Part shown: one piece after another, positions 20,944 to 64,000 of the stretch
Layout: every line of letters begins with the position of its first letter
Position numbering within the stretch: position 1 is the stretch's first letter
DNA from: Allotamlana fucoidanivorans
GTDB lineage: Bacteria; Bacteroidota; Bacteroidia; Flavobacteriales; Flavobacteriaceae
Assembly (NCBI RefSeq): GCF_006265225.1
Contig: NZ_VDCS01000014.1
Location: 51,539-115,538 of the forward strand
DNA: 64,000 nt
Direction: 5' to 3'
Translations under genes and position numbers: made by a program
Notes under the pieces: model-generated
What the model was told of the DNA's origin: nothing
Databases searched by the model: none
The model's input: the letters and a program-made list of their open reading frames with translations, nothing else

Positions 20944-21002
20944 CTTTGTAATTTTAAGGTATGTATTTACCAAATAAACTTACAAAACATGCAAAAACGA
21001 GC

Positions 21003-21920: not shown

Positions 21921-21967
21921 ACTATTAGTTTTGAATGTATCTTTGTACCTGATTTAATTCACAATAT

Positions 21968-22519: not shown

Positions 22520-22551
22520 ATTTCCATATCTTTAGGATATAATTATTCTTA

Positions 22552-23619
22552 ATGCCAAGAAAAAGACTTTACCGTTCAAAGAAAAAACTAGGACAAGTTC
22601 CAGGCAGTGTCATCTACACAGGGGAACGATCAAAAGACAAACTCTTTATTGAAACGTTCGATTATAATAAAGATTATGTTTTTGAAAAAGAACTCCCAAC
22701 CGTTGAAGACACCTTTAAATTTAAATTTACCGACAGCGTTACCTGGATAAATTTGAACGGACTCAATCATGTGGCCTCAATTGAAAAACTAGGGACACAT
22801 TTTGGTCTACACCCTTTAGTACTTGAAGATATTGTAAATATAGCACAGCGTCCTAAAATTGATGAATATGAAGGCTACATTTTTGTGGTTTTAAAAATGT
22901 TGTATTATGACACCAAGCAAAACATTGTTTCAGAGCAAGTAAGTTTTATTTTAGGCAGTAACTATGTATTTTCATTTCAGGAATCTGAAGGAGATGTTTT
23001 TGATACCATAAGAGAACGCATTCGTTTAGCCAAAGGCAGAATTAGAACCATGCAGGCCGATTATTTATTGTATGCCCTTATGGATGCGATTGTAGATCAT
23101 TACTTTAGTATAGTAGAAGTTTTAGGAGACAAGATTGAAGATTTTGAAACCGCCGTATTTGAAGGTCAAACAAAAGATGACGCGAGTAAAAACATTCAAG
23201 ACTTAAAACGCGAAGTATTGCGACTACGTCGGGCTATTTTTCCACTGAAAGAAGTTTTGAATCGCATTGATAGAAACGAAAACAACCTCATACAGAAGAA
23301 AACAATTACGTATTTTAGTGATATTGCAGATCATCTTACCCAAGTAACTGAAAACATAGAAATTTACCGTGAAATGACCTGGAGTTTAATGGATATGTAC
23401 ATGACTACCATTAGTAATAAAATGAATGAGGTCATGAAAGTACTTACCATTATGGCTTCTATATTTATACCTCTTACCTTTATTGCAGGTATTTACGGTA
23501 TGAATTTTGAAAACATCCCTGAACTACATTATAAAAACGCTTATTTTATTGTTTGGGGTATCATGATTCTTATTGTATTAGGGATGCTTTATTACTTTAA
23601 AAAGAAAAAGTGGTTGTAA
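22552..23619 (+). CDS. corA: CorA-family magnesium/cobalt transporter
   Basis: A homopentameric Mg2+ channel. The large N-terminal cytoplasmic funnel occupies about residues 1-290. The two C-terminal membrane helices follow, with the diagnostic YGMNF motif at the end of the first (IPLTFIAGIYGMNFENIPEL) and a basic KKKKWL tail. Length 355 is normal. The start has a basic RKRLYRSKKK leader, common in Bacteroidota CorA. Confidence 0.94.
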   Translation: MPRKRLYRSKKKLGQVPGSVIYTGERSKDKLFIETFDYNKDYVFEKELPTVEDTFKFKFTDSVTWINLNGLNHVASIEKLGTHFGLHPLVLEDIVNIAQRPKIDEYEGYIFVVLKMLYYDTKQNIVSEQVSFILGSNYVFSFQESEGDVFDTIRERIRLAKGRIRTMQADYLLYALMDAIVDHYFSIVEVLGDKIEDFETAVFEGQTKDDASKNIQDLKREVLRLRRAIFPLKEVLNRIDRNENNLIQKKTITYFSDIADHLTQVTENIEIYREMTWSLMDMYMTTISNKMNEVMKVLTIMASIFIPLTFIAGIYGMNFENIPELHYKNAYFIVWGIMILIVLGMLYYFKKKKWL

Positions 23620-23682
23620 TTTTTAATGAGCTTAAAAGGGTAACGTATTAATCTCGTTAAATAAATTTTAGCGCTTTATACC

Positions 23683-24222
23683 ATGAGTGCATCATTGAAT
23701 ATTGATTTTACAAATATTACATATCTAAAAAATGGAAATAAGCGCCAACAATAAGCCTATTCTTGCCTAAGAGAACTCGGCATTTTTGAAACTCTAGCAG
23801 AATACCATCCTATTTTAACAGGCACCATCCCTATTGGTATTGACTTATCCGAAAGTGATTTAGATATTATTTGTGAATGTTCTAACCATTTCAAATTTGC
23901 TAAAACACTAACTACCTTATATTCAGATAAGATTGATTTTAACATTAAAACTAAACCCCAGAATAATGTGCTATCAACTATTGCAACATTTTACAGTAGC
24001 GATTTTAAAATTGAGGTGTTCGGACAAAATTGCTCAACTACACATCAAAATGCTTACAAGCATATGATTGTTGAGCATAAAATTTTAAAAGCGTATGGTA
24101 AAAAATTTAAAGAAGAAGTTATCCGACTTAAGCGGGAAGGGATAAAAACGGAACCCGCATTTGCAACATTACTTGGCTTAAAAGGAAATCCTTATGAAGC
24201 ATTATTACACATTGACATTTAA
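23683..24222 (+). pseudogene. DUF4269 protein gene interrupted by one in-frame stop
   Basis: The frame starting at ATG 23683 reads MSASLNIDFTNITYLKNGNKRQQ, then TAA at 23752-23754, and continues without further stops to 24222 as AYSCLRELGIFETLAEYHP.. GTIPIGIDLSESDLDIICEC. This is the nucleotidyltransferase-like DUF4269 pattern, including a G-x-D/E-x-D style site. Only one codon prevents a 179-residue product; no shift is needed. Restart at an internal GTG (23968) would lose the active-site half. I read it as a recent nonsense mutation, or a base error that needs re-reading. Confidence 0.8.
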
Positions 24223-24486
24223 AAAAACAGAAAATGTATTGGCAATATGTTTTCCTGAATGACAGATCTAATCTTGAGAGTAAAAAGAATATCATCAAGA
24301 AAAACTTGCAAATAAGCCGACGCATTAGGCTCTTGATAATAGTTAAAAAAAAGTTTTTAGTTATTACATAAATTATTGACCTTCCAACCAACCTTCAAAA
24401 TACGTGCTGTCAATTTGGCATTTTTTTCCAATGGTATATTTTTTGAAAAATTAATACTATCGTATAACTTTTAAAATATATAACCG

Positions 24487-24972
24487 ATGAAAACATTGAA
24501 ATATATGCCTTTGTTTTGTTTGTTGTTATTTTTTAACTGTTCTGGACAAAACAAAGACTCTAAAGCCAAAAATGGTAATTCTCCAGATGAAAATATTTCT
24601 GTAAACAAAGAATATGATGAACACGGAAACCTCATCAAGTATGATTCCATTTATTCATACAGCTATTCTTCAAATGGAAAAACACCTGATAGTTTAAAAC
24701 TAAAATTCCAGAAGCATTTCAACAGCCACTCTTTTTTTAATGATGCCTTCTTTGATGATTTCTTTCAAAAAGATTCCATTTCAAACCATTTTGATTATGA
24801 AAATTTCTTTTATGATGGTTTTATGAATCAAGATGAACACATAAAAAACATGATGCGTCGCATGGACTCTATTCAGCAACTCTTCTTCAACCAACAACAA
24901 AAACCAATCATTCCTGCCGAGCCAGAAAAAAGTCGTTCAAACACTAAAAACATGGCACTCAAACAAATATAA
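24487..24972 (+). CDS. Small lipoprotein of unknown function
   Basis: A 161-residue protein with a lipoprotein signal (..LLLFFNCSGQ, Cys after FN). The mature part is polar and Asp/Phe-rich, with a repeated pattern of FF and D (FFNDAFFDDFFQK, DYENFFYDGF), then a Gln-rich end. No family recognised. It is monocistronic, ending 32 nt before a strong terminator. Confidence 0.65.
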   Translation: MKTLKYMPLFCLLLFFNCSGQNKDSKAKNGNSPDENISVNKEYDEHGNLIKYDSIYSYSYSSNGKTPDSLKLKFQKHFNSHSFFNDAFFDDFFQKDSISNHFDYENFFYDGFMNQDEHIKNMMRRMDSIQQLFFNQQQKPIIPAEPEKSRSNTKNMALKQI

Positions 24973-25003
24973 ACCGCCCCTTGTAACCGTTAAATAAAAA
25001 TTA

Positions 25004-25032
25004 AAACCAGCTGTTCTGCTGGTTTCTTTTTT
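25004..25032 (+). terminator. Intrinsic terminator
   Basis: AAACCAGC/GCTGGTTT stem with a 6-nt loop, followed by CTTTTTT, between the small lipoprotein and the PIG-L operon. Confidence 0.88.
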
Positions 25033-25059
25033 ATATTTGATTTTAGCTAACAAAACATT

Positions 25060-27585
25060 ATGAACAAAACACTACTTTCCTTAACCATAGCTATATTTAG
25101 CTTATGTTATGGTATAGCTCAAAAACCCACTACCCCATCATCAGTTCAAATTTATGAATCCATTCAAAAATTAAATTTTTTGGGTTCTGTTCTTTACGTA
25201 GCCGCGCACCCCGACGATGAAAACACGCGCTTAATTTCTTATATGTCTAATCATGTAAAGGCAAGAACAGCCTATTTATCATTAACTCGTGGTGATGGTG
25301 GCCAAAATTTAATTGGTCCTGAAATCAGAGAATTACTTGGTGTTATAAGAACTCAAGAACTTTTGGCTGCCCGAAGAGTTGATGGTGGCGAGCAACTATT
25401 CACAAGAGCTAATGATTTTGGATATTCAAAACACCCTGAGGAAACCTTAAATATTTGGAATAAAAATGAGGTATTGGGTGATGTTGTTTTGGCCATCAGG
25501 AAATTTAAACCTGACGTGATTATTAACAGGTTTGATCATAGAACACCTGGAACTACTCATGGACATCATACTACTTCGGCTATGTTAAGCATGGAGGCTT
25601 TTGATTTAGCAAACGATAATTCGGCTTATACTGACCAGTTAAACCAAACTAGCTTATGGCAACCCAAGCGTATATTTTACAACACCAGTTGGTGGCGCTA
25701 TGGAAGTGTAGAAGCCTTTGAAAAAATTGATAAAAGTCAAATGCTACATTTTAATATTGGAACCTACTACCCTTTAAAGGGGTTATCAAACAATGAGTTG
25801 GCGGCTTTGGCTAGTAGTCAACATTTATGTCAAGGCTTTGGCCGCTTGTCCCAACGTGGTTCGGAAAGAGAATACATTGAGTTTTTAAAGGGTAAACCTA
25901 TTCAAAATAAAGCGGATATTTTTGATGGCATTGATACCTCATGGAATCGTATAAAAGGCGGACAAAACATAGGCACTATTTTAGAACAAGTTGAAAAGAA
26001 TTTCAATTTCACAGATCCATCTACCCATATTCCAGAATTACTCAATGCCTACCAATTACTCCAAAATATTGATGATGAACACTGGAAAACTCAGAAATCT
26101 AAGGAGCTTAAAACGATTATAGCCATGTGTGCAGGCTTGTATTTAGAGGCTTCAGCAGAGAACAATTGGGCTTCACCAAATGAGCAAGTAAAGGTAACAC
26201 TAGAAGCCTTAAACCGTAGCAATGTTACAATCACCTTAGTTAGTATTAATAGCGCCAATGGTTTAAATATTTCTAAAAACATGGCGCTAAAAAATAACAT
26301 CAAACACACCTTTGAAACGTCTTTAAAAGTAAAGGCTCATCAAAAGCCAACCTCTCCCTATTGGTTGAATGAAAAAGGATCTTTAGGTATGTACACCGTA
26401 AATAATCCTGAGCTTATTGGGCAACCTGAAACCCCCAGAGCATACAGCATAGCATTTAATTTAACCATTAATGAGGTGCCGCTTACTATTTCAAAAGCCA
26501 TAGTTCACCGTTTTTCAAAACCAGATAAAGGAGAGTTATACCGCCCCTTTGAAATCATTCCAGAGGCTTCGGCCAAAATCAATGAAAAGGTTATCATTTT
26601 CAATTCAGACAAAAGCCATGATATAAATATGATAATAAAGGCTGGTAAAGACCATTTGAAAGGTACTGTTGAATTATGTCTTCCAAACCACTGGAACGTT
26701 TTTCCAAAACATCAAAAGGTTGATATCACACATAAAGGCGAAGAACAAACCTTTACTTTCAATGTTACACCACCTAAAGATGAAAGCGAAGGTTATATAA
26801 GTCCGTTAGTACGTATTGAAGGAAAAACATTTACCAAGGAACTTATTGAAATTGATTACGACCATATTCCTTTTCAAACGGTATTGCTACCAAGCGAAAG
26901 TAAAGTGGTGCGTTTAAACATAAAGAAAAGCGGCGAAAACATTGCCTATATTCAAGGTGCAGGCGATGTAGTCCCTGAAAGTTTAGAGCAAATTGGTTAT
27001 CATGTTAGGGTGATATCTCCTGAAGACATTTCGCCAGAAACCCTAAGCAAATTTGATGCTATTGTTATTGGTGTTAGAGCTTATAATGTTATTGAGGATC
27101 TTGAATACAAACACGATGACTTATTTAATTTTGTGGCACATGGCGGAAATATGATTGTGCAATACAATACAAGCTACAGGTTAAAAACAGAAGCATTAGC
27201 CCCGTATCACTTACACCTTTCTAGAGATCGGGTAACCGACGAAAAGGCCGAGGTTAGATTTTTAACCCCAAACCATCCTGTTTTGAATTACCCCAATAAA
27301 ATCACAAAACAAGATTTTGATGGATGGACTCAAGAACGCGGTTTGTATTTTCCTGATTCCTGGGCTAAAGAATTTACGCCTATTCTATCCATGAATGATA
27401 AAAACGAAACGCCTAAAGAAGGTAGTTTATTGGTAGCCAAATATGGAGAAGGCCATTACATATATACTGGTTTAAGTTTTTTTAGAGAGTTTCCTGCAGG
27501 TGTTTCAGGCGCTTATCGCTTATTCGCTAATATGCTCTCTCTTGGTAAAGACAAGATGCTTCAAGACAAACAATTTAATGACTAA
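25060..27585 (+). CDS. Large secreted PIG-L family deacetylase
   Basis: An 841-residue exported protein (signal peptide to about residue 20, ..LCYGIAQ). The N-terminal domain is a LmbE/PIG-L deacetylase with the metal motif AAHPDDE near residue 48, the conserved SLTRGDGGQN loop and a late His motif (HGHHTTS). The middle is beta-rich (NEW3-like), and the C-terminus (about 620-830) resembles a glutamine-amidotransferase or ThuA-like fold (DAIVIGVRAYN). It probably deacetylates an N-acetylated sugar outside the cytoplasm. It heads an operon with a small membrane protein, a symporter and a Gfo/Idh/MocA enzyme. Confidence 0.85.
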   Translation: MNKTLLSLTIAIFSLCYGIAQKPTTPSSVQIYESIQKLNFLGSVLYVAAHPDDENTRLISYMSNHVKARTAYLSLTRGDGGQNLIGPEIRELLGVIRTQELLAARRVDGGEQLFTRANDFGYSKHPEETLNIWNKNEVLGDVVLAIRKFKPDVIINRFDHRTPGTTHGHHTTSAMLSMEAFDLANDNSAYTDQLNQTSLWQPKRIFYNTSWWRYGSVEAFEKIDKSQMLHFNIGTYYPLKGLSNNELAALASSQHLCQGFGRLSQRGSEREYIEFLKGKPIQNKADIFDGIDTSWNRIKGGQNIGTILEQVEKNFNFTDPSTHIPELLNAYQLLQNIDDEHWKTQKSKELKTIIAMCAGLYLEASAENNWASPNEQVKVTLEALNRSNVTITLVSINSANGLNISKNMALKNNIKHTFETSLKVKAHQKPTSPYWLNEKGSLGMYTVNNPELIGQPETPRAYSIAFNLTINEVPLTISKAIVHRFSKPDKGELYRPFEIIPEASAKINEKVIIFNSDKSHDINMIIKAGKDHLKGTVELCLPNHWNVFPKHQKVDITHKGEEQTFTFNVTPPKDESEGYISPLVRIEGKTFTKELIEIDYDHIPFQTVLLPSESKVVRLNIKKSGENIAYIQGAGDVVPESLEQIGYHVRVISPEDISPETLSKFDAIVIGVRAYNVIEDLEYKHDDLFNFVAHGGNMIVQYNTSYRLKTEALAPYHLHLSRDRVTDEKAEVRFLTPNHPVLNYPNKITKQDFDGWTQERGLYFPDSWAKEFTPILSMNDKNETPKEGSLLVAKYGEGHYIYTGLSFFREFPAGVSGAYRLFANMLSLGKDKMLQDKQFND

Positions 27586-27589
27586 GCCT

Positions 27590-27700
27590 ATGTCTGAGCA
27601 GCAACCACCTAAACAAACCTGGCTTAAGTTGTATTCCATAGTCTTGATAGCGAATGCCATATATTTTATCATCTTTTACATAATCACCAAATCATTTTAA
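27590..27700 (+). CDS. 36-residue single-helix membrane protein preceding a sodium:solute symporter
   Basis: The ATG at 27590 encodes MSEQQPPKQTWLKLYSIVLI.. followed by a hydrophobic run and IITKSF: a soluble N-tail and one transmembrane helix. It is 4 nt from the symporter start and just after the deacetylase stop. An ATG at 27578 would add four residues. Other sodium:solute symporters have short accessory membrane proteins encoded immediately upstream (for example YhdT with PanF, YjcH with ActP), so a symporter subunit is a reasonable inference. Confidence 0.7.
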   Translation: MSEQQPPKQTWLKLYSIVLIANAIYFIIFYIITKSF

Positions 27701-27704
27701 AACC

Positions 27705-29426
27705 ATGCAAATTTTAAATTGGGTAGATTGGATAGTGCTCGGCGTTACGTTAGTCACTATTGTAACGTATGGCACCATTCAAACCAGAGGTAGTAAAAAT
27801 GTAAAAGATTATCTAAGGGGTGGCAACACATCAAAATGGTGGACGATTGGTTTATCGGTTATGGCTACCCAAGCTAGTGCAATCACCTTTCTATCTACAC
27901 CTGGGCAAGCGTTTCATGACGGCATGGGGTTTGTTCAATTTTATTTTGGTTTACCCATTGCTATGGTAGTGATTTGCATGGTGTTTATCCCCTTGTATTA
28001 TCGGTTGAAAGTATATACAGCTTATGAATTTTTAGAAAACCGTTTTGATTTAAAAACCAGAACACTGGCAGCAGTATTGTTCTTGATTCAACGTGGTTTA
28101 GCCGCTGGAATAACTATTTTTGCTCCCGCAATTATTCTTTCGGTGGTGCTTGGTTGGGATCTTTTAACGCTTAATATTGTGATAGGATTACTGGTAATTA
28201 TTTACACTGTTTCGGGTGGTACCAGAGCGGTGAATGTCACCCAAAAACATCAAATGGTTGTCATCTTTATAGGAATGCTTGTTGCGTTTTTCCTGATTGT
28301 AAGTCAACTTCCCCAAGATATTACCTTTTCAAAAGCGCTTCAAATTGCTGGCGCTAGTGGCAAAATGGAAGTTCTTGATTTTTCATTTGACCTGAATAAC
28401 CGATATACGTTTTGGAGTGGCATTATTGGTGGTACTTTTTTAATGTTGTCTTATTTTGGAACAGATCAAAGTCAGGTACAACGCTATTTATCGGGTAAAT
28501 CTGTTAAAGAAATGCAACTCGGGTTAATTTTCAATGGTATTTTAAAAGTACCCATGCAATTCTTTATTTTACTTGTAGGCGTTATGGTTTTTGTGTTTTA
28601 TCAGTTTAATGAGGCACCAATAAACTTTAATCCAACCGCCACAGAACTGGTTTTAAATTCAGAGTATGCCGAAGACTATAAAAGCCTTCAAGAAGAACAA
28701 AAAACCCTATTTAAAGAACGTCAACAATCTATTAACGCCTTGATTCATTCTGAAAATCAAGACGCTTCCATACAATTAGCTGAAAGCGCTATCACTTATG
28801 AAGCATTGCGATTAAAGGCGCAAGACCTTATTAACAAAGTTTCAGAAAAAAAAGATATAAAAGTAGAAAGTAATGATAAAGACTATGTGTTCATCCATTT
28901 TATCTTAAACAATTTACCTAGAGGATTAATTGGTTTATTATTAGCTGTTATTTTAAGTGCTGCCATGTCTAGTACGGCTAGTGAACTCAATGCTTTGGGG
29001 TCAACAACAACCATTGATTTATACAAGCGAAATGTTAGTGAAAAATCTGAAGCTCAGATGGTAAACACTTCAAAATGGTTTACCTTTGCTTGGGGCATCA
29101 TGGCTATTGGTGTGGCTTGTGTTGCCAATTTAGCCGAAAACTTAATTCAGTTGGTAAATATTATCGGTTCCATTTTTTATGGCAACGTTTTAGGTATTTT
29201 TCTTCTGGCCTTTTTCTTTAAATTTGTACAAGGTAATGCGGTTTTTATTGCGGCTTTAATCACTCAAGTTGTTGTGATAGGTCTATTCTTTCTCAATGAA
29301 TATGGTATCATCAACCTGCCATTTCTTTGGTTAAATTTTGTAGGCTGTATTATTGTTATTGCCGCCGCTTGTTTGATTCAAATATTACATCCAAATGACA
29401 AAACAATCACAAAAGCAAATCATTAA
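27705..29426 (+). CDS. Sodium:solute symporter (SSS family)
   Basis: A 573-residue inner-membrane transporter with about 13-14 helices. Characteristic segments are the WWTIGLSVMATQASAITFLSTPGQAFHDG helix-1/2 region (sodium site), YSVSGGTRAVNVT-like loops and the AILSAAMSSTASELNALGSTTTIDLYK signature. A charged 80-residue insertion at about 320-390 is cytoplasmic. In this operon it probably imports the sugar or sugar amine released by the deacetylase. The next gene starts inside its 3' end (32-nt overlap). Confidence 0.9.
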   Translation: MQILNWVDWIVLGVTLVTIVTYGTIQTRGSKNVKDYLRGGNTSKWWTIGLSVMATQASAITFLSTPGQAFHDGMGFVQFYFGLPIAMVVICMVFIPLYYRLKVYTAYEFLENRFDLKTRTLAAVLFLIQRGLAAGITIFAPAIILSVVLGWDLLTLNIVIGLLVIIYTVSGGTRAVNVTQKHQMVVIFIGMLVAFFLIVSQLPQDITFSKALQIAGASGKMEVLDFSFDLNNRYTFWSGIIGGTFLMLSYFGTDQSQVQRYLSGKSVKEMQLGLIFNGILKVPMQFFILLVGVMVFVFYQFNEAPINFNPTATELVLNSEYAEDYKSLQEEQKTLFKERQQSINALIHSENQDASIQLAESAITYEALRLKAQDLINKVSEKKDIKVESNDKDYVFIHFILNNLPRGLIGLLLAVILSAAMSSTASELNALGSTTTIDLYKRNVSEKSEAQMVNTSKWFTFAWGIMAIGVACVANLAENLIQLVNIIGSIFYGNVLGIFLLAFFFKFVQGNAVFIAALITQVVVIGLFFLNEYGIINLPFLWLNFVGCIIVIAAACLIQILHPNDKTITKANH

Positions 29427-55515: not shown

Positions 55516-55589
55516 GGCGAGGTAGCTCAGTTGGTTAGAGCGTCGGATTCATAACCCGGAGGTCTCGAGTTCAAATCTCGATCTCGCTA
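55516..55589 (+). tRNA. tRNA-Met(CAU), elongator type
   Basis: A 74-nt cloverleaf. The anticodon loop TTCATAA gives CAU. The acceptor stem GGCGAGG pairs with TCTCGCT (two G-U pairs); it lacks the C1-A72 mismatch of the initiator. CCA is not encoded. A tyrosine integrase gene starts 55 bp downstream, so the 3' end is a candidate attachment site. Confidence 0.94.
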
Positions 55590-55614
55590 CGAAACGCAAA
55601 TCACGCATAATCAG

Positions 55615-55643
55615 CGGTTTAGTCTTCACTAAACCGTTTTTTT
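55615..55643 (+). terminator. Terminator of tRNA-Met, abutting the integrase ATG
   Basis: A perfect 9-bp stem CGGTTTAGT/ACTAAACCG with loop CTTC is followed by seven T. The first base after the T-run is the A of the integrase ATG at 55644. Confidence 0.85.
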
Positions 55644-56978
55644 ATGCTTAGTTCAAAACAAATTCATAGATTTGCATACGATTTTGAATACGAAAGTGCA
55701 TACGATTTGCCCAAAACACCAAAATTTTCCAATCCAAAAATCTATTCCGCCAAAGGCGACTTATCCAAACGCTGGTATGTGTATTTTTCCTATGAACATC
55801 CTGAAACAGGAAAGTTAAAACGCTTAACCCCATTTTACGGACAAGCCAACAAGTACCAAACCAAAGAAGAACGTATGGAAGTTTTGGTGGTTTATAGAAA
55901 AGCACTGCTGCAGTTACTAAAACAAGGTTACAATCCTTTTTCAGACAATACCGAACTTCATAATAAGTTAAACGGAACATCGGAGCCTAATACCAAACCA
56001 ACCGAACAAGGGGCAACATCAACAGAAAAAACAACGGCTACAACCCCAACAGCGCATCAAGAGCCAAGCATGTCTACCAAGGCGGCTTTTGATTTTGCCT
56101 TGCAACTAAAAGAAAAAGAAGTAAGCCCGCGTACCTTCAAAGACTACTCGTATAAAGCCAAATACTTTTTAAATTGGATTACTGAAACCCATTCAGATAT
56201 AACAAGTATTGACCAACTGACCAAAAAACTTTTGGTTGAATTCTTAAATCAAATCCTTTTAAAAACATCAGCTAGAAATAGAAACAACTACCGTGTTGAG
56301 TTGGGCAGTTTATTGCAGGTTTTAGAAAATAATGAACTTATAACCACCAATCCTGTAAAACACATTACCATACTTAAATCTCAACCAAAGCGCAATAAAA
56401 CCTATTCGCAAACTACACAAGAAAGCATATTTAAGCATTTAGAAGTTAACGACCCTATATTGCTGTTGTATATCAAATTTTTGTCTTATAACTTTTTACG
56501 TCCTGTAGAACTGTGTCGTTTAAAAATTGGTGACATCAACCTAAAAACTCATATCCTAGAGTTTAAAGCCAAAAACAGTCCTTTAAAAACTAAAATCATT
56601 CCTGATATTTTATGGCAAGATTTACCTGATTTATCTCAGATGAATAAGGATGACTATTTGTTTACCCCAAAAAAACTTGGTGGGCAATGGGCTATTGATG
56701 AGGTTAACAAGCGCGATTATTTTACCAAGCGTTTTAAAAAAGTGGTGAAGGATGTGTTTAAATTAGAACAAGATTACACCTTGTATAGTTTCCGTCATAC
56801 CTTTATTACCAAGCTCTACCGTGCCTTAAGTGAAGAAAACACACCCTTTGAAGCCAAGAGTAAACTCATGCTTATTACAGGTCACAGTTCTATGAAAGCT
56901 TTAGAGAAGTATTTACGTGATATTGATGCGGAATTACCTGCTGATTATTCCAACCTATTAAGTCCAACAAATGGCTGA
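55644..56978 (+). CDS. Tyrosine recombinase (phage-type integrase)
   Basis: A 444-residue site-specific recombinase. About residues 20-100 form an arm-type DNA-binding domain (KRWYVYFSYEHPETGKLKRLTPFYG). A Thr/Glu-rich linker (about 110-150), a SAM-like core-binding domain (150-245) and a catalytic domain follow. Catalytic residues: Arg in FLRPVELCRL, Lys in the beta hairpin, the HxxR box as YSFRHTF (Tyr replaces the first His, common in this group), GHSSMKALEKYLRD with His and Tyr. The position 55 bp after tRNA-Met indicates insertion of an element at that tRNA. It overlaps the next gene by 8 nt. Confidence 0.9.
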   Translation: MLSSKQIHRFAYDFEYESAYDLPKTPKFSNPKIYSAKGDLSKRWYVYFSYEHPETGKLKRLTPFYGQANKYQTKEERMEVLVVYRKALLQLLKQGYNPFSDNTELHNKLNGTSEPNTKPTEQGATSTEKTTATTPTAHQEPSMSTKAAFDFALQLKEKEVSPRTFKDYSYKAKYFLNWITETHSDITSIDQLTKKLLVEFLNQILLKTSARNRNNYRVELGSLLQVLENNELITTNPVKHITILKSQPKRNKTYSQTTQESIFKHLEVNDPILLLYIKFLSYNFLRPVELCRLKIGDINLKTHILEFKAKNSPLKTKIIPDILWQDLPDLSQMNKDDYLFTPKKLGGQWAIDEVNKRDYFTKRFKKVVKDVFKLEQDYTLYSFRHTFITKLYRALSEENTPFEAKSKLMLITGHSSMKALEKYLRDIDAELPADYSNLLSPTNG

Positions 56979-57678: not shown

Positions 57679-57698
57679 AGGATGTGTAAAGTACTGCG

Positions 57699-58506
57699 GT
57701 GCACTTTTGGTGCGGTCGTGGTGTGGTATAATATAGCTTTTCCACCCATACCTACGTAAAAGGTTTATTAAGAAACACATAACTAATCACAAAACCCATG
57801 TAAATTCACACCTAATGTAAGTGTTTTGAGTGCTCTTTGAGCGGTTTTTCAGTTTTTTATTCGTCTTTTTAAGTGGTATCTCAGTGCTGGACCGATTAAC
57901 TATGGGTGATATTTAAGTGGTACTTCAGTGGTTATTAAGTGGTTTTGGTGTGGTATAATATTACTTGTTTACCTATACCTAAGTAAAGGCTTTTTAAGAA
58001 ATACGCAACTAATCACATAAACCATGTAAACTCACACTTAATGTAAATGTTGTGAGTGGTTTTTTAGTTTTTCTTGGTCTTTTTAAGTGGTTTTTCAGTG
58101 GTGGCACAGTTGAATATGAGTGGTCTTTAAGTGGTACTTCAGTGGTGTTACATGATCGATAAACCAACCTGCGCATTAAAGTGTGAGGTTGAAGAATTCA
58201 TTGGGTGTGGTTTGGTGCGGTATAATATAGCTTTTCCACCTATACCTACGCAAAGACTTTTTAAGCAACACCTACCTAATCACATAACCCATGTAAACTC
58301 ACACTTAATATAAGTATTGTAAGTGGTGTTTGAGCGGTTTTGTAGTTATTATAAGTGTTATTTCAATGGAACATCAGTGGTCATTGAGTGGTTTTTTAGT
58401 TTTTTATCGTCTTTATAAGAGGTTTCTCAGAGGTGGAAAAGTTAAACAAGAGTGGTCTTTAAGTGGTACTTCATTGGTTATTAAGTGGTTTTGGTGCACT
58501 TTTGGT
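57699..58506. repeat. Field of three degenerate long tandem repeats plus AGTGGT-type short repeats
   Basis: The element GGTATAATAT starts at 57725, 57952 and 58219, giving unit lengths of about 227 and 267 bp. Each unit continues with (C/A)CTATACCTA, TTTTTAAG-AA-AC, CTAATCACA, CATGTAAA-TCACAC and then a run of short motifs of the type AAGTGGT, TTCAGTGGT and GTGGTTTT. The field is bounded by identical GGTGCACTTTTGGT (57699-57712 and 58493-58506). No real gene was found within it: the short open frames here are made of repeat sequence. Confidence 0.85.
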
Positions 58507-58563
58507 TTGGTTTGGCAGGAAGAAAAGCATAAATACAGCTAAAGATAATTAATACATAAACCA

Positions 58564-58977
58564 TTAATCTAAATTCTGAATACGTACAGACCATGGATTG
58601 AATTTTATATTACTCATATAGTCTTGTTTTTGAATAATAAGTAGTTTGTCTTGACCCTTTTCTTGGATGGGCAAATAACCGTAATCGTAACAAAAAAAGT
58701 AAGTGCCTGTTTTAAATGGAAACATATCTGTGAAATATATAAATGAGAACCCTAGTTGATGTAAAACCGATTTTTTAACCGTACTTTTTCCACTGGGGCA
58801 GAACTGCGCTAATAAGCCTCTATTTTTTCTGAGTATTTTATTAATCTCTTGCATCTGCATTTCATGAGGTGCCCTGTTTTTGTTGTGATATATGCTTCTG
58901 CATTGAGCATCGCAAAATTTCTTATCCGATCTTCCCTTTAAAGGTTTGTTACAAGCTAAACATAATGTTAGTTCCAT
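58564..58977 (-). CDS. Zinc-ribbon protein, divergent to the recombinase
   Basis: A 137-residue protein. Residues 1-35 form a treble-clef or zinc ribbon with two Cys pairs: CLACNKPLKGRSDKKFCDAQC. The basic segment RSIYHNKNR and a helix follow. The C-terminal half is a beta-rich domain (YFFCYDYGYLPIQEKGQDKLLIIQKQDYM). It is probably DNA-binding. It starts 81 bp from the divergent recombinase start across a region with a perfect 20-bp palindrome, so it may control itself and the recombinase. Confidence 0.75.
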   Translation of the reverse strand: MELTLCLACNKPLKGRSDKKFCDAQCRSIYHNKNRAPHEMQMQEINKILRKNRGLLAQFCPSGKSTVKKSVLHQLGFSFIYFTDMFPFKTGTYFFCYDYGYLPIQEKGQDKLLIIQKQDYMSNIKFNPWSVRIQNLD

Positions 58978-59058: not shown

Positions 59059-60240
59059 ATGAAACCACTTCCTCAAATCCGTCTGAAACGCGTTGCGCAT
59101 CAAAACAAAGATATTTTAATCTTAGAGTTCAGGTATAATGACATGCTTATTCAAAAGGTAAAAGATACGGGCAAGGCCAGATGGAGCGCTACAAAAAAGG
59201 CGTGGTATTTGGTCTTTTCAGAATCCCATATCAACCTAATAAAACGTATTTTTCAGAATGAAGTTACATTTATAGAAGATGCTTCGTTGCTTTCAGTTCC
59301 TAGAGGCTTAAAACCAAAATATACAAAAGTTGGCAGAGTTATTTCCGAAGAAAACAAAACCATGATACGCAATTTTGTGTCTTATTTAAGAGGTAAGCGC
59401 TATAGTAAAAGTACAGTAAAAACTTATTTTACTTTTGTGGCTGACTTTTTTCAATATGCAAACCATATTCCCATAACAGATCTAACCAATCGTGATGTAG
59501 AATTATTTTTAGAAAATGTTTTTGTGCCCAGACAATATAGCATCAGTTCACAAAGGCAGTTTATTAGTGCCATGAAGTTGTTTCTGAAATTTAATACGAG
59601 CACTCAAATTGATGAATTACATTTAATTCGGCCAACGCGATCAAAATTATTACCGACCGTTTTATCTATAGAAGAAGTGGTTGAGATGCTGCGTTGCACT
59701 AAGAATTTAAAGCACAGAGCTATATTAGCTTTAATTTATTCGGCAGGACTCAGGATTAGTGAATTACTGAATTTACAATTGGCGCATATAGATATTGACA
59801 GACGGCAAATTTATGTAAAGAACTCAAAAGGCCGAAAGGATAGAACCATTATATTAGCGGAAAGTTTTTTACCCGTTTTTAAAAACTATTTTCATACGTA
59901 TAAACCTGAATTCTATTTTGCTGAAGGTCAACCCAGACAACGTTATAGTGCAGAAAGTGTACGAGCTTTTTTAAGGCGTTCTTGCCGATTAGCGCGAATT
60001 TCAAAACGGGTGACACCCCATACATTAAGGCATAGCTATGCTACACATTTGTTGGAAAACGGCATTGATTTACGTTATATTCAAGAACTTTTGGGGCATG
60101 CCAAGCCTGAAACTACTATGATTTACACGCATGTAAGTAGAAAGGATTTGCTAAATATTCAAAGTCCGTTAGATATCGCTGTAAAGAAAATAGTTGCTAT
60201 TCAAGAACAAGATACCCCGCGATTATCTAAGAATCTTTAG
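59059..60240 (+). CDS. Xer-like tyrosine recombinase heading the cassette array
   Basis: A 393-residue recombinase. An unusual N-terminal domain (about 1-85, with WSATKKAWYLVF) is followed by a SAM-like core-binding domain (about 95-185) and the catalytic domain. Catalytic residues are Arg232 (GLRISELL), Lys257, His321-x-x-Arg324 (HTLRH), His347 (LGHAKPETT) and Tyr356 (MIYTHV). The ending THVS...NIQSPLD resembles IntI. The segment before HTLRH (about 280-320) seems too short to contain the extra helix of integron integrases. Its direction is the same as the cassettes, and attC-like sites begin 0.8 kb downstream. Presumably it catalyses cassette excision and insertion. Confidence 0.9.
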   Translation: MKPLPQIRLKRVAHQNKDILILEFRYNDMLIQKVKDTGKARWSATKKAWYLVFSESHINLIKRIFQNEVTFIEDASLLSVPRGLKPKYTKVGRVISEENKTMIRNFVSYLRGKRYSKSTVKTYFTFVADFFQYANHIPITDLTNRDVELFLENVFVPRQYSISSQRQFISAMKLFLKFNTSTQIDELHLIRPTRSKLLPTVLSIEEVVEMLRCTKNLKHRAILALIYSAGLRISELLNLQLAHIDIDRRQIYVKNSKGRKDRTIILAESFLPVFKNYFHTYKPEFYFAEGQPRQRYSAESVRAFLRRSCRLARISKRVTPHTLRHSYATHLLENGIDLRYIQELLGHAKPETTMIYTHVSRKDLLNIQSPLDIAVKKIVAIQEQDTPRLSKNL

Positions 60241-60416
60241 CTTACAAAAAACGTAGGAATAATTGTAAGAATTTCTGTTTAATTCAATATATTTGAGCAA
60301 GTGAAACCAGCACGACAGTGGTATTTTGGCTTTTGTATAAACTTAACGTTTATTACGTTTATCCGGAACGGTAAGCCAATAAACAGTATAGTCTGTTGGG
60401 ATATAACGAGTTGTAA
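60241..60416 (+). other. Candidate attI region of the integron-like array
   Basis: The non-coding interval between the recombinase stop and the first cassette junction. The junction is G^TTGTAA at 60410-60416 and is fixed by complementarity with the R'' box of cassette 1 (TTACAAC at 61021-61027). The sequence before it (GGGATATAACGA) has no long hairpin partner, unlike the attC sites, as expected of an attI. It also holds the array promoter. Confidence 0.7.
60263..60295 (+). promoter_or_regulatory. Array promoter (Pc-like)
   Basis: TTG at 60263-60265, 22-nt spacer and TATATTTG at 60288-60295 match the Bacteroidota promoter. It reads into the cassettes from within the recombinase-cassette interval. 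Confidence 0.7.
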
Positions 60417-61147
60417 GTAATTTAACCCAAACCGAGAATGAAGTACCTGACAATAATAATACTTTCCTTATCGATACAATCCTGTGCCCAAGATTGTGAG
60501 AATGTTTATTTTACTGAAAATGATAAAACTTGGTTCTCTAATTACAATATTGGAGACAAACTAATTTTTAAATCTCAAAAGAATGATTTGGATACTATTT
60601 TCATAACTAATAAAGTATTGAAAGAACCAAATGGTAATTGCAAAACCTTCGTTTCTGGTGGATTTGATAGAGAGTTTGCAAGAATTGACTATAAAATTAA
60701 AAAAGACTCTCTGAAAATAATTGAGGACTATTTTATACAAATCAACGCAAATGAAAAAAAGAAAGATGCAAGTCCTGTCATTCGCTTATTAAATTTGGAA
60801 TTTAGCAGTTTCAATAATATTCTTCCGAAAACAAAACAATCTGAATTAAAAACTGAATGGAAAAATGTTTACACGTTTAACAAAAATAATTGTCCTTATT
60901 CGAATCTAAATGGAAAATTTGGACTGACCGAATTTGAATGGGATAAAGAATTTGGACTTATCTCATACACAAATGAAAAGGGAGAAAAATGGACATTAAT
61001 AAAAAAGGAATAAAAACTACTTACAACAATGTATAACCGCAATTACGGCGGATTCGACTACGTCCGAATCCACTCGGAATTGCTAACGTTAGTTCTAAAC
61101 CGAAAATCATTAACCTTAAAACCGTAACGGACGGTTATACGAGACCG
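60411..61147 (+). mobile_element. Gene cassette 1
   Basis: Bounded by G^TT junctions at 60410/60411 and 61147/61148. The start (with preceding G) GTTGTAAGTAAT and the end ACTACTTACAAC are reverse complements in 11 of 12 positions, so the DNA could close into a circle with one attC. It carries one gene. Confidence 0.85.
60438..61013 (+). CDS. Cassette 1 product: secreted/lipoprotein-like protein
   Basis: A 191-residue protein with an export signal ending IQSCAQDC (possible lipobox Cys). The mature part has many beta strands and ends NGKFGLTEFEWDKEFGLISYTNEKGEKWTLIKK, a WD/EF-type strand pattern recurring in Bacteroidota small lipoproteins. No named family. It starts 27 nt after the cassette junction, as is usual for cassette genes, and lies wholly within one cassette. 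Confidence 0.72.
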   Translation: MKYLTIIILSLSIQSCAQDCENVYFTENDKTWFSNYNIGDKLIFKSQKNDLDTIFITNKVLKEPNGNCKTFVSGGFDREFARIDYKIKKDSLKIIEDYFIQINANEKKKDASPVIRLLNLEFSSFNNILPKTKQSELKTEWKNVYTFNKNNCPYSNLNGKFGLTEFEWDKEFGLISYTNEKGEKWTLIKKE

Positions 61148-61153
61148 TTAGGC
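61021..61153 (+). other. attC-like site 1 (133 bp)
   Basis: R'' TTACAAC (61021-61027), L'' GTATAACCG (61031-61039), L' CGGTTATAC (61132-61140), R' GTTAGGC (61147-61153). L'' and L' pair over 9 bp and further inner pairing continues (TTACGG segments). A second inner hairpin GGATTCG/CGAATCC sits in the loop. Confidence 0.85.
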
Positions 61154-62006
61154 AACATTTGACAAACCAATCAACATCTGAATAGAATATGGGATTTTTT
61201 GATTTTTTAAGTTTAAAAACAACTGACGAAAAACTGACAGAAAAATTAGTGAATTTTGTTTACAACAGTATTCAATCTAAAAAAGGGGTTCGAGTAGAAG
61301 ATGCGATATGTTTGATTTCTACAATTGTTGCAGAAAGATGTATTGAAGTTACGAATGAATTTTCAATTAACGAACACGAATTCGAACCTGGTTCAGCAGT
61401 TTTTTCCGAGAAAATTAATGAATTACTTGTTGGAGAAATCGCTGTAGAAAAATGGACTGAATTGCCTGAAGAATGTGTTTTTGCTAGAATTAAAAGTAAA
61501 ATTAATTCTCATTTTGACAATAGTTCTTTTCCTTCTCTAACTGGAATTTTTGAAAATTACGCGAAGAATGTTGGAAAAACGGAATGGGGAAATCTAAATT
61601 TATCAATTCCAGAAGATAACAAACCATTCTTATTGCCATTACGAGTTGGATATGAAACAAGAAAATTCATTGATAATAATATAAATATTGAAAATAACGA
61701 AAAGACATTACAGATAGCGATTAATGCAATTGGAAAAATACTTATAGAAACTAAAATGGCTTTGGACTCATCAATTGCTTTGGTTATGACATTTGAAATT
61801 ATAAATGGAATGTCTAAAACAGCAACAATGACTGACAAAAAAATGGCGGAATTAGAACCTTAAAAAAAATAAAAACGTTGCCTAACACCGTATAAAAAAA
61901 ATTGCTAGTTTTAGCTAAACCAAAGTTAGTTGCTCGTTTGCTTGCTTCTGATTTTCCTTCGGAAAATCCTCGCACACAAACACGCAACTTTCCTTATACA
62001 ACAACG
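61148..62006 (+). mobile_element. Gene cassette 2
   Basis: Start GTTAGGCAAC (from 61147) and end GTTGCCTAAC (61877-61886) are perfect reverse complements over 10 bases. One gene inside, followed by a 133-bp attC-like site. Confidence 0.9.
61189..61863 (+). CDS. Cassette 2 product: unknown cytoplasmic protein
   Basis: A 224-residue soluble helical protein starting MGFFDFLSLKTTDEKLTEKL, with no signal peptide. The mid part WTELPEECVFARIKSKINSHF and the end ALDSSIALVMTFEIINGMSKT contain no motif I recognise. The start lies 42 nt after the cassette junction. The protein is Glu/Lys/Asn-rich and acidic overall. Confidence 0.7.
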   Translation: MGFFDFLSLKTTDEKLTEKLVNFVYNSIQSKKGVRVEDAICLISTIVAERCIEVTNEFSINEHEFEPGSAVFSEKINELLVGEIAVEKWTELPEECVFARIKSKINSHFDNSSFPSLTGIFENYAKNVGKTEWGNLNLSIPEDNKPFLLPLRVGYETRKFIDNNINIENNEKTLQIAINAIGKILIETKMALDSSIALVMTFEIINGMSKTATMTDKKMAELEP

Positions 62007-62012
62007 TTATGC
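61880..62012 (+). other. attC-like site 2 (133 bp)
   Basis: R'' GCCTAAC (61880-61886), L'' GTATAA (61890-61895), L' TTATAC (61994-61999), R' GTTATGC (62006-62012). The stem extends inward beyond the L boxes with mismatches (AAA-TTGC with GCAA-TTT). The loop contains GATTTTCCTTCGGAAAATC. Confidence 0.85.
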
Positions 62013-63051
62013 GTAAACTAAAAAAATGAAGAACCATATTTATACATTTATCCTGTTTCAACTTCTTACCTTTCAATCTTTTTCGCAAGAGATTGAAATG
62101 AACGGAATAATTGCTGATTCTGAAACTGAAAACCCAGTTGAATTTGTAAATATTGGTGTTTTAAATAAAAATAAAGGAACAATTTCAAATCTAAATGGAA
62201 AATTTAAACTGAGCGTTTCAAAGAAGTTTTTAAATGACAGTTTAACCATTAGTCATATAAATTATTATCCTGTTAAAATCCCAATCAAAAATTTTAATAA
62301 TAAAACTATATTTTTAGAACCCAAAATAAATGAACTTTCCGAAGTTATAGTTTCTAATAAAAAGAAAAGGAATAGGAAAATAGGAGTTAAAAGTTATAAC
62401 CCTTTATTATGGCTTGGTGCAATTTCGGAGGATATGGACATTATTGAGAATGCTCAAAGAATTAATATTCCAGATAAAACTGTTAGAGTAAAATATGTTA
62501 ATATCTATTTAAGGGCAGGTTTTAAAGCTGACAGCAGTTTTGTTAGAATAAACTTCTACAAAAATGTGGACAACAAGCCTGATGAAAAAATTATTTTTGA
62601 AAATATAGTTCAGAAAAAAAAGATTGAACCTGGTTGGTTACAAATTGACCTGACAAAACAATATATTTATTTGGAAGAAGATTTTTTTGTTGGTGTGGAA
62701 TTCATACCAAATTTTAAAAATAAACTTGAAGTATATATTGGGGCAATATTGACAAAAGGAAAAGGATATTCAAGAAGAAACAGCCTAGGGAAATGGAATA
62801 AACTTCAAGGAGCATCAACAATAAATGTAGAAATCGAATATTAAACGAGCAAAAGTCTACGCATAACAATGTATAAAAAAAATAGGGCAGAAAAGTGCTT
62901 AAACAAAGTCTTGGGCGTATTTGTGAAGTCGCCAAATCTTTTGATTTGGCTTTTTAAAAAATAAGATAAAAACAAAATGCAAAAGTTTTGGCTTGTGGAT
63001 AATCTGAATGGACACCGTTTACAACCAGCCCTACTTTTCTTATACTAACCG
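62007..63051 (+). mobile_element. Gene cassette 3
   Basis: Start GTTATGCGTAAAC (from 62006) and end GTCTACGCATAAC (62855-62867) are reverse complements except at one base. One gene inside; the attC-like site is long (197 bp). Confidence 0.9.
62026..62844 (+). CDS. Cassette 3 product: secreted carboxypeptidase-regulatory-like domain protein
   Basis: A 272-residue exported protein with a signal peptide (..LLTFQSFSQ). About residues 22-105 match a CarboxypepD_reg-like beta sandwich (NGIIADSETENPVEFVNIGVLNKNKGTISNLNGKFKLSV), the domain found at the start of many Bacteroidota surface proteins and TonB receptors. The remaining beta-rich part has no family I recognise. The gene starts 19 nt after the junction. 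This is a bacteroidotal, envelope-directed cargo. Confidence 0.78.
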   Translation: MKNHIYTFILFQLLTFQSFSQEIEMNGIIADSETENPVEFVNIGVLNKNKGTISNLNGKFKLSVSKKFLNDSLTISHINYYPVKIPIKNFNNKTIFLEPKINELSEVIVSNKKKRNRKIGVKSYNPLLWLGAISEDMDIIENAQRINIPDKTVRVKYVNIYLRAGFKADSSFVRINFYKNVDNKPDEKIIFENIVQKKKIEPGWLQIDLTKQYIYLEEDFFVGVEFIPNFKNKLEVYIGAILTKGKGYSRRNSLGKWNKLQGASTINVEIEY

Positions 63052-63057
63052 TTGTGC
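62861..63057 (+). other. attC-like site 3 (197 bp)
   Basis: R'' GCATAAC (62861-62867), L'' GTATAA (62871-62876), L' TTATAC (63040-63045), R' GTTGTGC (63051-63057). The arm continues for about 20 positions with few mismatches (..AAAATAGGGC with GCCCTACTTTT..). Confidence 0.85.
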
Positions 63058-63630
63058 TTAATTATGACAAACCAAGAAATCATTTCTGAAATCACATCGA
63101 GAGACACACATAAAGTTTGGAACTCATCTTGTAAAATAATTGAAATTGGACAGGACACTGAACGGATTATAGAACTAATTCCTTATTTGGACTTGATTAA
63201 GAACAAAACAAAAGGTTTAAAAATGGGAGGCGGATTAGCACCTAATCAACGATTTGTTGATTTTGCCATCAGAATACTCGAACATTATAAATCTAGTCAA
63301 GAGTGTTCTTGTAATCTATATTTAGAACATAGCATTAATCCCGAAAGAGAAGAAAAAAATGGATTTATAACAATATTAGAAAAAAAGCAAGGAGATTGGG
63401 AAATGGATTATCTTATCGCATGCTCAAAATGCGGAACGGAATACAAAGTTAATAGAAATGATGGCGGACATTTTCCTTATTTTGACTGGAAAAAAAATAA
63501 CTAAGCACAACACCGGCTATAGTTCATTGCTTCTGACTTTCCTATCGGAAAGTCCTCGCAAATTTGCTATCTTCGGTTTACGGCGGAAAATCCTCGCGGA
63601 TTTTCACGCAACGAAACCATAGCCAAACCG
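63052..63630 (+). mobile_element. Gene cassette 4
   Basis: Start GTTGTGCTTA (from 63051) and end TAAGCACAAC (63502-63511) are perfect reverse complements over 10 bases. One gene, whose ATG is 12 nt after the junction. Confidence 0.9.
63064..63504 (+). CDS. Cassette 4 product: unknown protein with two Cys pairs
   Basis: A 146-residue cytoplasmic protein from the ATG at 63064. A helical N-terminal half (TSRDTHKVWNSSCKIIEIGQD.., then KGLKMGGGLAPNQRFVDFAIRIL) precedes a possible zinc site built from ECSC and CSKC. A C-terminal NDGGHFPYFDW segment ends it. Similar unnamed proteins exist in many bacteria to my memory, but I cannot assign a function. The upstream in-frame TTG at 63052 overlaps the junction and is unlikely to be used. 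Confidence 0.72.
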   Translation: MTNQEIISEITSRDTHKVWNSSCKIIEIGQDTERIIELIPYLDLIKNKTKGLKMGGGLAPNQRFVDFAIRILEHYKSSQECSCNLYLEHSINPEREEKNGFITILEKKQGDWEMDYLIACSKCGTEYKVNRNDGGHFPYFDWKKNN

Positions 63631-63636
63631 TTACCA
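63505..63636 (+). other. attC-like site 4 (132 bp)
   Basis: R'' GCACAAC (63505-63511), L'' GGCTAT (63515-63520), L' ATAGCC (63619-63624), R' GTTACCA (63630-63636). Inner pairing continues (TTGC with GCAA), and the loop carries two GC-containing hairpins (GACTTTCC/GGAAAGTC and GGAAAATCC/GGATTTTC). Confidence 0.85.
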
Positions 63637-64000
63637 AATATAGTGCAAGAGCGATATTCGGTGCTTGTTTAAAATATTGGTTTTTTGCCTAAAAATCAGT
63701 TCTAATTTTCAAAGTTTTGGCTCAAGTCCTTTTTTGAGAACTAAACGCCAATGTGTTGTTTTCTCTTTTGCTGTTTTTCGGTTTTTTTAAAATCTTTCAG
63801 GTGCTTTAAAAGGTCATTTCTAAGTCATCGATAATTTAGTTTATCTCAATCTAATCGGATTTTTAAGCAGTTTTCTTTTTGCCCTTTTTCTGGCTGGCGT
63901 TCTGATTCGTTCTGATTTCAAAAAAGGTGTTCGTGCTCAATTTTGTGTTGCAACCTAAATGCCAAAAAAGTCGGTTTCTCTCAGCAAAGTTCATGCTGAT
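63631..64000 (+). mobile_element. Start of cassette 5 (truncated by window edge)
   Basis: The cassette begins TTACCAAATA after the attC-like site 4 junction. The expected closing box TATTTGGTAAC is not reached before the window ends. In 370 bp I find no convincing gene on either strand; a 43-codon minus-strand frame near 63860-63994 is too weak to call. It may be a non-coding cassette or have its gene further right. Confidence 0.55.

Follow-up and report, generated by a model that had tools for sequence, protein, structure and literature searches.

Can an integron be run by a recombinase other than IntI? This question is raised by the end of a contig of Allotamlana fucoidanivorans (NCBI RefSeq assembly GCF_006265225.1, contig NZ_VDCS01000014.1, positions 51,539 to 115,538), a stretch of 64,000 nucleotides referred to here as the window, in which the gene of a Xer-like tyrosine recombinase is followed by single genes that each end in an imperfect palindrome. 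When a circular cassette is inserted into an integron, its attC site is cut at G^TT, so that the inserted cassette starts with R′ and ends with R″. The locus in the window is very probably a sedentary chromosomal integron, predicted from its sequence to be run by a non-IntI tyrosine recombinase acting at G^TT. Under the usual definition, which rests on an IntI with an additional domain, it is formally outside the integrons, and in its organization it is highly likely to work like one. The features on which this reading is built are given below, with scores of the sites from the covariance model R1 described further on.

59059..60240, plus strand: tyrosine recombinase, 393 amino acids (aa), with an N-terminal domain (about residues 1-80), a SAM-like core-binding domain (104-180) and a catalytic domain (203-361)
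60340..60412, plus strand: attI-like site, with the predicted crossover G^TT at 60410 and, upstream of it, a TTATCCGGAA box at 51-42 bp, ATAAA at 31-27 bp and ATATAAC at 9-3 bp
60410..61146, plus strand: cassette 1, 737 bp, with an open reading frame (ORF) at 60438-61013 of 191 aa without Pfam or NCBIfam match; ends complementary at 11/12 positions
61020..61154, minus strand (the bottom strand, which matches the model): attC-like site 1, R1 86.2 bits, E 1.7e-15, in the seed set
61147..62005, plus strand: cassette 2, 859 bp, ORF 61189-61863 of 224 aa without Pfam or NCBIfam match
61879..62013, minus strand: attC-like site 2, R1 106.1 bits, E 1.5e-19, outside the seed set
62006..63050, plus strand: cassette 3, 1045 bp, ORF 62026-62844 of 272 aa with a CarboxypepD_reg-like domain
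62860..63058, minus strand: attC-like site 3, a long form of 199 bp, R1 54.4 bits, E 5.2e-9, outside the seed set
63051..63629, plus strand: cassette 4, 579 bp, ORF 63064-63504 of 146 aa (150 aa from the TTG at 63052) without Pfam or NCBIfam match
63504..63637, minus strand: attC-like site 4, R1 94.7 bits, E 3.1e-17, in the seed set
63630..64000, plus strand: start of cassette 5, with GTT at 63630, interrupted by the contig end (115538, which is also the window end)

The cassette array and its imprint

An initial annotation of this DNA described a recombinase followed by four one-gene units in a single orientation and the beginning of a fifth, and this arrangement is borne out: the recombinase frame runs from 59059 to 60240, each cassette has one main ORF on the plus strand, all sites found by R1 lie on the minus strand, and a further GTT stands at 63630. 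The units end in imperfect palindromes with R and L boxes, as had been described, and only their size needed correction, from 132-197 bp to 134-199 bp with the R boxes. Over the whole 64 kb, R1 finds these four sites and its next-best match has an E-value of 1.8. Rfam at gathering cut-offs reports four tRNAs in the window and nothing else.

The cassette ends carry a signal of their own. In all four complete window cassettes, the first 12 nucleotides agree with the reverse complement of the last 12 at 11 positions; beyond the fixed GTT, 8 of 9 positions are complementary in each, and the binomial chance of at least 8/9 is 1.1e-4 per cassette. Complementarity between start and end is expected in an integron because the attC of an inserted circular cassette is split at G^TT. 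The complementary ends are thus read as a probable trace of the insertion of circular cassettes at G^TT, the junction that had been proposed for these units. The same signal extends well beyond the window. We excised 252 cassettes, 98 from a genome of another genus (G014), 51 from the A. fucoidanivorans genome, and 103 from the best 150 of 237 sites at loci encoding relatives of the recombinase. At least 6 of the 7 positions past the core are complementary in 218 of these, compared with a mean of 9.5 and a maximum of 18 in 500 random re-pairings. The longest ORF runs along the array in 229 of the 252, in the opposite direction in 5, and no ORF of 50 aa is present in 18.

The attC-like sites

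Simple palindrome scans gave many false sites in AT-rich DNA (a crude early scan did not distinguish the window sites from background), and were dropped for a motif scan followed by a covariance model. The motif scan covered the window and 80 loci encoding recombinase relatives, the best 80 of 244 that passed. It found 88 downstream sites, to which the window contributed one, compared with 3 upstream and 3 on the opposite strand, and the distance from AAC to GTT is 117-120 bp in most. The covariance model R1 was built from 37 seed sites aligned as bottom strand, 35 from the loci and two from the window (61018-61154 and 63500-63637); the seeds exclude the sites of G014 and those of the A. fucoidanivorans genome outside the window. 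The R1 consensus structure has 21 pairs, with two-sided changes in 13. Among the 109 sites of G014, 98.1% of cells pair and 13 of the 21 pairs again show two-sided changes, with 314 two-sided cells compared to 97.5 in shuffles, a comparison biased towards the structure because the alignment was fitted to it.

Three bottom-strand G.T pairs are nearly constant in G014 (102/108, 108/109, and 107/108). On the top strand the same pairs would be A.C mismatches, so folding of the bottom strand would be favoured. Folding energies point the same way: the bottom strand is the stabler one in 86 of the 88 sites from the motif scan, which credited G.T pairs on neither strand (mean -21.0 vs. -17.8 kcal/mol, DNA parameters), and it is stabler in 102/108, 64/67, and 143/150 sites of three sets chosen by the model. 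In these models the bottom strand is the predicted folded strand of attC. R1 gave no match in 20 loci that encode IntI or in two stretches from E. coli; the flanks of these IntI loci are only about 1.5 kb or less, so that the result says little on canonical attC sites.

The attI-like site

The survey for attI comprised 49 loci, the window and 48 with a downstream site. A GTT matching the R″ of the first attC is present in 42 of them, and in 36 of these 42 a TATAA box adjoins it; the box consensus was derived from these 36. An attI-like site likewise lies beside the recombinase of G014 and at the more distant locus L167. The same search was negative at a second array head of the A. fucoidanivorans genome (contig C60) and at L162, L163, L164, and L166. 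The motif TAnnTTTG, which we take to be the Bacteroidota -7 promoter motif, occurs within 15 of the 36 attI sites (mean in letter shuffles, 0.65), and in 13 of these 15 it starts 22 bp before the crossover.

The recombinase

The residues R232, K257, H321, R324, H347, and Y356 are invariant across 29 aligned recombinase sequences, so the R-K-HxxR-H-Y set that had been called intact is indeed conserved. The protein stays below the cut-offs of four family profiles: it scores 197.8 bits against 265 for the IntI profile TIGR02249, 172.4 against 335.15 for TIGR02224 and 174.9 against 329.6 for TIGR02225 (XerC/XerD), and 209 against 220 for NF040815, a family that all 29 sequences match. The distance between the KGxKDR and HxLRH motifs is 63-64 residues in 19 of 20 members of the group (the twentieth was missed by the motif), compared with 105 residues in 8 of 8 IntI proteins, 67 in E. 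coli XerC, and 71 in XerD. Among 8 further relatives it is 63 residues in 7, and the remaining one is a false motif match. The window recombinase is without the patch-III insertion of IntI and has an additional N-terminal domain, as the initial annotation had suspected. The patch-III insertion is described as specific to IntI (PMC9668308; PMC9024848), and the additional domain of IntI is described as needed for cassette recombination and is used to separate integron integrases from other recombinases.

Among solved structures, the top match of the recombinase core in both sequence and structure is archaeal XerA (PDB 4a8e, 5hxy), and these matches span the protein from about residue 89 onward only. 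For the N-terminal domain, Pfam gave nothing convincing across the 29 recombinases among the matches listed (best 25 of 39 families). A DNA-binding domain of the HARP/XPB type is a tentative candidate here: HARP stands at rank 4 in Foldseek with a weak E-value of 0.09 and is absent among the 50 VIA-align rows listed. The C-terminus (TTMIYTHV...SPLD) closely resembles that of IntI. One relative of 66% identity is named "site-specific tyrosine recombinase/integron integrase" at NCBI, which is a generic family label and silent on arrays.

A tree of 39 rows, with IntI, E. coli XerC and XerD, and Bacteroidota recombinases, places IntI in its own clade (support 100/100), apart from the group of the window recombinase. 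In the free tree IntI stands beside this group with weak support (86/67); when all non-IntI Bacteroidota rows are kept together, the likelihood is 8.95 higher and the p-value of the approximately unbiased test (p-AU) is 0.75. IntI and the group may share one origin or have two. Another recombinase of the A. fucoidanivorans genome, L004, clusters with E. coli XerC and XerD.

Arrays across genomes

In the A. fucoidanivorans genome, R1 finds 68 matches at E-values up to 1 and 67 at values up to 0.01, the latter in 13 stretches, the window included. Many contigs start or stop at a site because repeats break assemblies. The second array head of this genome (L008, G000:C60:118-5359) has 6 sites and encodes a recombinase of 36% identity, whose reading frame is open over 376 aa; the only stop that the search reported in it is apparently the natural end of the gene.

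Larger arrays are seen in G014, a single contig of 3.93 Mb. It holds 109 R1 sites in 180 kb, 108 of them one way. Its recombinase (C1:2793664-2794788), 54% identical to that of the window, stands at the start of a 58-site array about 69 kb long, and half a megabase off there is another array with 51 sites, of which 50 share one orientation; no second recombinase was found in this genome at E 1e-60. Arrays of this kind reach up to superintegron size. Inside the G014 array (L123-L126) there are repeats of 1345-1347 bp and 99.3-99.4% identity, perhaps insertion sequences, and further duplications occur within and between the two arrays (86 alignment rows above 97% identity and 350 bp, each pair being listed from both sides).

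At the 80 loci, with the recombinase taken as plus strand, every one of the 237 sites falls on the minus strand, a count that is partly circular since R1 was built from these loci and the window. Of these sites, 226 follow the recombinase and 11 precede it; L086, whose contig stops 5 bases past the recombinase match, accounts for 9 of the 11. At 44 of the 80 loci the sequence continues for more than 1.5 kb downstream, and a site is present in 42 of these. The initial annotation had suggested searching relatives for the recombinase together with hairpin arrays. Among 40 genomes (A. fucoidanivorans and 39 relatives), sites at E 0.01 occur in 28, and in 23 the recombinase profile has a match at E 1e-60; both occur in 22, the recombinase only in 1, sites only in 6, and neither in 11 (Fisher p 5e-5). 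In an order-level sample with stricter filters, 63 of 196 genomes gave a match at E 1e-4. Tenacibaculum has sites in 5 of 7 loci examined, from four species. The sites lie between genes in arrays and are not scattered without genes between them.

Canonical IntI is frequent in the GTDB phylum, in classes other than that of A. fucoidanivorans. TIGR02249 has matches at E 1e-50 in 108 of 395 genomes of a phylum sample, and in 105 of 395 above its cut-off; a single genome among the 108 is listed under the same class, and the others share the phylum only. Layout and recombinase type also vary: L163 (G006:C7) and L162 (G001:C13) have their arrays, made up of the same kind of site, on the upstream side of a related recombinase gene, a divergent arrangement that is typical of intI; one of these two recombinases has the N-terminal domain and the other does not.

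Cassette content and movement

An ORF of 60 aa is present in 125 of the 154 cassettes of G014 and the A. fucoidanivorans genome. Pfam finds no family more than 3 times among the 125 ORFs, with WapI-like immunity, two TPR families, and Thioredoxin_2 at 3 each (25 families listed). Among the Pfam matches listed, single ORFs match HamA, Imm33, and EcoO109I, and among the PADLOC matches listed (25 families), cassette ORFs match HamA, PtuA, HerA, and SoFic models.

Cassettes differ between genomes, and some are common to separate genera. A cassette of 704 bp in the A. fucoidanivorans genome (contig C67, L128) has three copies in G014 at 99.57-99.72% identity. Alignments that include the flanks extend over 709, 718, and 737 bp, since adjacent sites resemble one another at their ends, and its neighbours differ in all four contexts. 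Three more cassettes are 95%, 91%, and 85% identical between these two genomes over most of their length; six pairs passed the filter in total. Outside the arrays, identity between the two genomes is 68-71% over the four pieces of window positions 20000-28000 that align. Near-identical cassettes amid so divergent a backbone, ending at the predicted crossovers, indicate that single cassettes moved recently between genera as units. Cassette sharing thus speaks for movement, and it does not identify the responsible enzyme. Together with the attI-like site, the covarying attC-like sites, the complementary cassette ends, and arrays that run to dozens of cassettes, sharing across genera at the predicted boundaries supports the integron architecture that had been proposed for this locus.

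Comparison with known systems

Canonical integrons, both class 1 and superintegrons, resemble the present arrays in an attI site beside the integrase, cassettes that mostly consist of one gene and an imperfect palindrome, G^TT as crossover, folding of the bottom strand (predicted here), and dozens of cassettes. They differ in the recombinase, which here is without the patch-III insertion, carries an N-terminal domain, and is transcribed toward attI, and in the sites, which here mostly measure 117-120 bp from AAC to GTT and have conserved G.T wobbles. The chromosomal integrons of Treponema share an integrase transcribed toward attI in the same direction as the cassettes (PMC3607928); these carry intI, whereas the integrase here is not IntI. 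The Integron-like and Xer subgroups of simple tyrosine recombinases share the catalytic and core-binding domains with the window recombinase (PMC8138268), and the window recombinase adds to these the N-terminal domain and the association with arrays. NF040815 takes in all 29 sequences of the group, with the window protein under its cut-off. Archaeal XerA, which resolves chromosome dimers, has a similar core and leaves the N-terminal part of the window recombinase outside the match.

The closest experimental evidence on such cassettes comes from the virulent Polaribacter phage P12002L. IntI1 recombined attC2 of the phage's cluster of attC sites lacking integrases (CALIN) into attI1, from the bottom strand and not the top, and attC1 failed (PMC9892861). 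R1 finds 11 sites in this phage (L169, NC_028924.1, 14498-39714) at E-values up to 0.0054, five of them of only 55-67 bp, and by eye several neighbouring units are complementary at start and end. The CALIN differs from the window locus in lying on a phage and having no recombinase, and attC2 may be any one of the 11 R1 sites. Virulent phages may carry these cassettes between hosts.

The large IntegronFinder 2.0 survey lists one complete integron in Bacteroidetes proper, in Salinibacter ruber (PMC9024848), and one Tenacibaculum genome run through the program is reported without integrons (PMC10013915). Reviews count Bacteroidota among the integron phyla, and intI is counted in the Bacteroidetes/Chlorobi group in PMC2426708; no word starting with Bacteroid or Flavobacter occurs in PMC8352920 or PMC7370490. 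Searches of open-licence PubMed Central papers, assessed by title and abstract opening and by passages of the papers cited, gave no description of these arrays, preprints and closed journals being outside this scope, so that an earlier report is possible. The system has likely been overlooked because searches look for IntI. The initial annotation anticipated that such searches would miss the recombinase, and its 197.8 bits against a cut-off of 265 agree with this, as does the negative Tenacibaculum result (another strain) against the sites found here in that genus.

Points against the reading and rival explanations

Several observations weigh against a non-IntI integron, beginning with the circularity of the orientation count noted above. 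The minimum-energy fold of the isolated window sites is the R/L stem in only 2 of 4, and the bottom strand is the more stable by 1.0, 5.1, 0.9, and 1.0 kcal/mol, which is about 1 in three of the four. At 13 of the 49 loci the search for the attI box was negative; at four others (L013, L018, L027, and L028), attI lies 1-7 kb behind the recombinase gene; and TAnnTTTG is absent from the window attI and present in only 15 of the 36. Loci L014 and L026 are site-free over 4.7 and 2.2 kb downstream, the genome G037 has the recombinase and no site, and L168, with a related recombinase that has the N-terminal domain, shows no site within the 10 kb examined. The AlphaFold2 model is poor near the catalytic tyrosine. 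The recombinase profile also catches more distant recombinases, some beside arrays of divergent layout, so that the assignment of enzyme to site is uncertain.

In one rival explanation, the cassettes are moved by a canonical IntI that is supplied in trans by a plasmid, a phage or a copy since lost, and the Xer-like recombinase is a bystander. IntI1 may recognise such sites, given that it recombined one attC of P12002L into attI1 and that R1 finds sites in this phage. G019, another genome that counts against the enzyme in the window, has 38 sites with no recombinase found at E 1e-60, and its arrays are either without their enzyme or with another one. However, TIGR02249 found no canonical IntI in the 40 genomes at E 1e-40, a search in which no control genome gave a match and whose threshold, to its disadvantage, also hides the weak IntI match of the window recombinase itself. 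In addition, the recombinase precedes an array with the conserved attI box in 36 of 49 loci, and sites are present in 22 of the 23 genomes with the recombinase, which makes an enzyme in trans unlikely. Another explanation is that the recombinase is an ordinary IntI stripped of its insertion and its activity, heading the relics of an older IntI integron. While its C-terminus is near that of IntI and the free tree weakly sets IntI beside the group, the motif spacing separates the two, IntI forms a fully supported clade of its own, the catalytic residues are invariant, and the near-identity of cassettes between two genera speaks for recent movement. We consider this explanation quite improbable.

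The palindromes could instead be other repeats, such as transposon ends or terminators, with a chance island of genes between them, and the near-identical repeats of about 1345 bp in the G014 array, if insertion sequences, would fit this. The complementarity of unit starts and ends, the single orientation of 237/237 sites, the attI box, and shared units that end at predicted crossovers argue otherwise, and we hold the chance island to be very improbable. Least credible of all, and close to negligible, is a system resembling pdif modules, in which the cell's XerC and XerD would move the units via dif-like sites. The dif sites are short, whereas the present sites are long covarying palindromes; the recombinase stays under the XerC/XerD cut-offs, and the genome encodes a separate recombinase, L004, in the cluster of E. 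coli XerC and XerD.

Proposed mechanism

If the locus is a non-IntI integron, as we favour, the bottom strand of attC would fold into a hairpin, helped by the G.T wobbles, and four recombinase subunits would bind the R and L boxes and exchange a single strand. Circular cassettes would be excised and reinserted at attI, directly behind the recombinase gene. In some relatives, the first cassette would be expressed from a TAnnTTTG promoter within attI. The N-terminal domain may compensate for the absent IntI insertion or bind the upstream attI boxes, and this is the weakest step of the proposal.

Neighbouring features of the window

Upstream of the locus, a second tyrosine recombinase of 444 aa (55516-56978) with a weak Phage_integrase match lies about 50 bp past a tRNA-Met gene and resembles a tRNA-targeted island. 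Between both recombinase genes, positions 57680-58520 hold degenerate AGTGGT-rich direct repeats, with one pair of 94 nt at 86% identity, 332 nt apart, and another of 68 nt at 84%, 267 nt apart; Tandem Repeats Finder reported none in this region. An ORF of 137 aa on the minus strand (58564-58977), with a weak treble-clef match (DUF2116, E 0.005, under the cut-off), lies directly upstream of and divergent from the recombinase gene of the array.

Implications

On balance, we favour the view that Flavobacteriaceae and their neighbours hold a second kind of integron, with arrays of superintegron size and a Xer-like recombinase that has a new N-terminal domain, is without the IntI insertion, and acts on single-stranded hairpins. 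If this is true, integrons arose twice, or began before IntI gained its insertion. Arrays of dozens of cassettes, with signs of recent movement between genera, would be headed by an enzyme without the domain that was supposed to be necessary. The requirements for a tyrosine recombinase to act on folded single strands, and the way in which integrons began, thereby become directly testable. For the Flavobacteriaceae, it would mean that a large mobile gene pool, including some phage-defence and immunity genes, has likely been overlooked.

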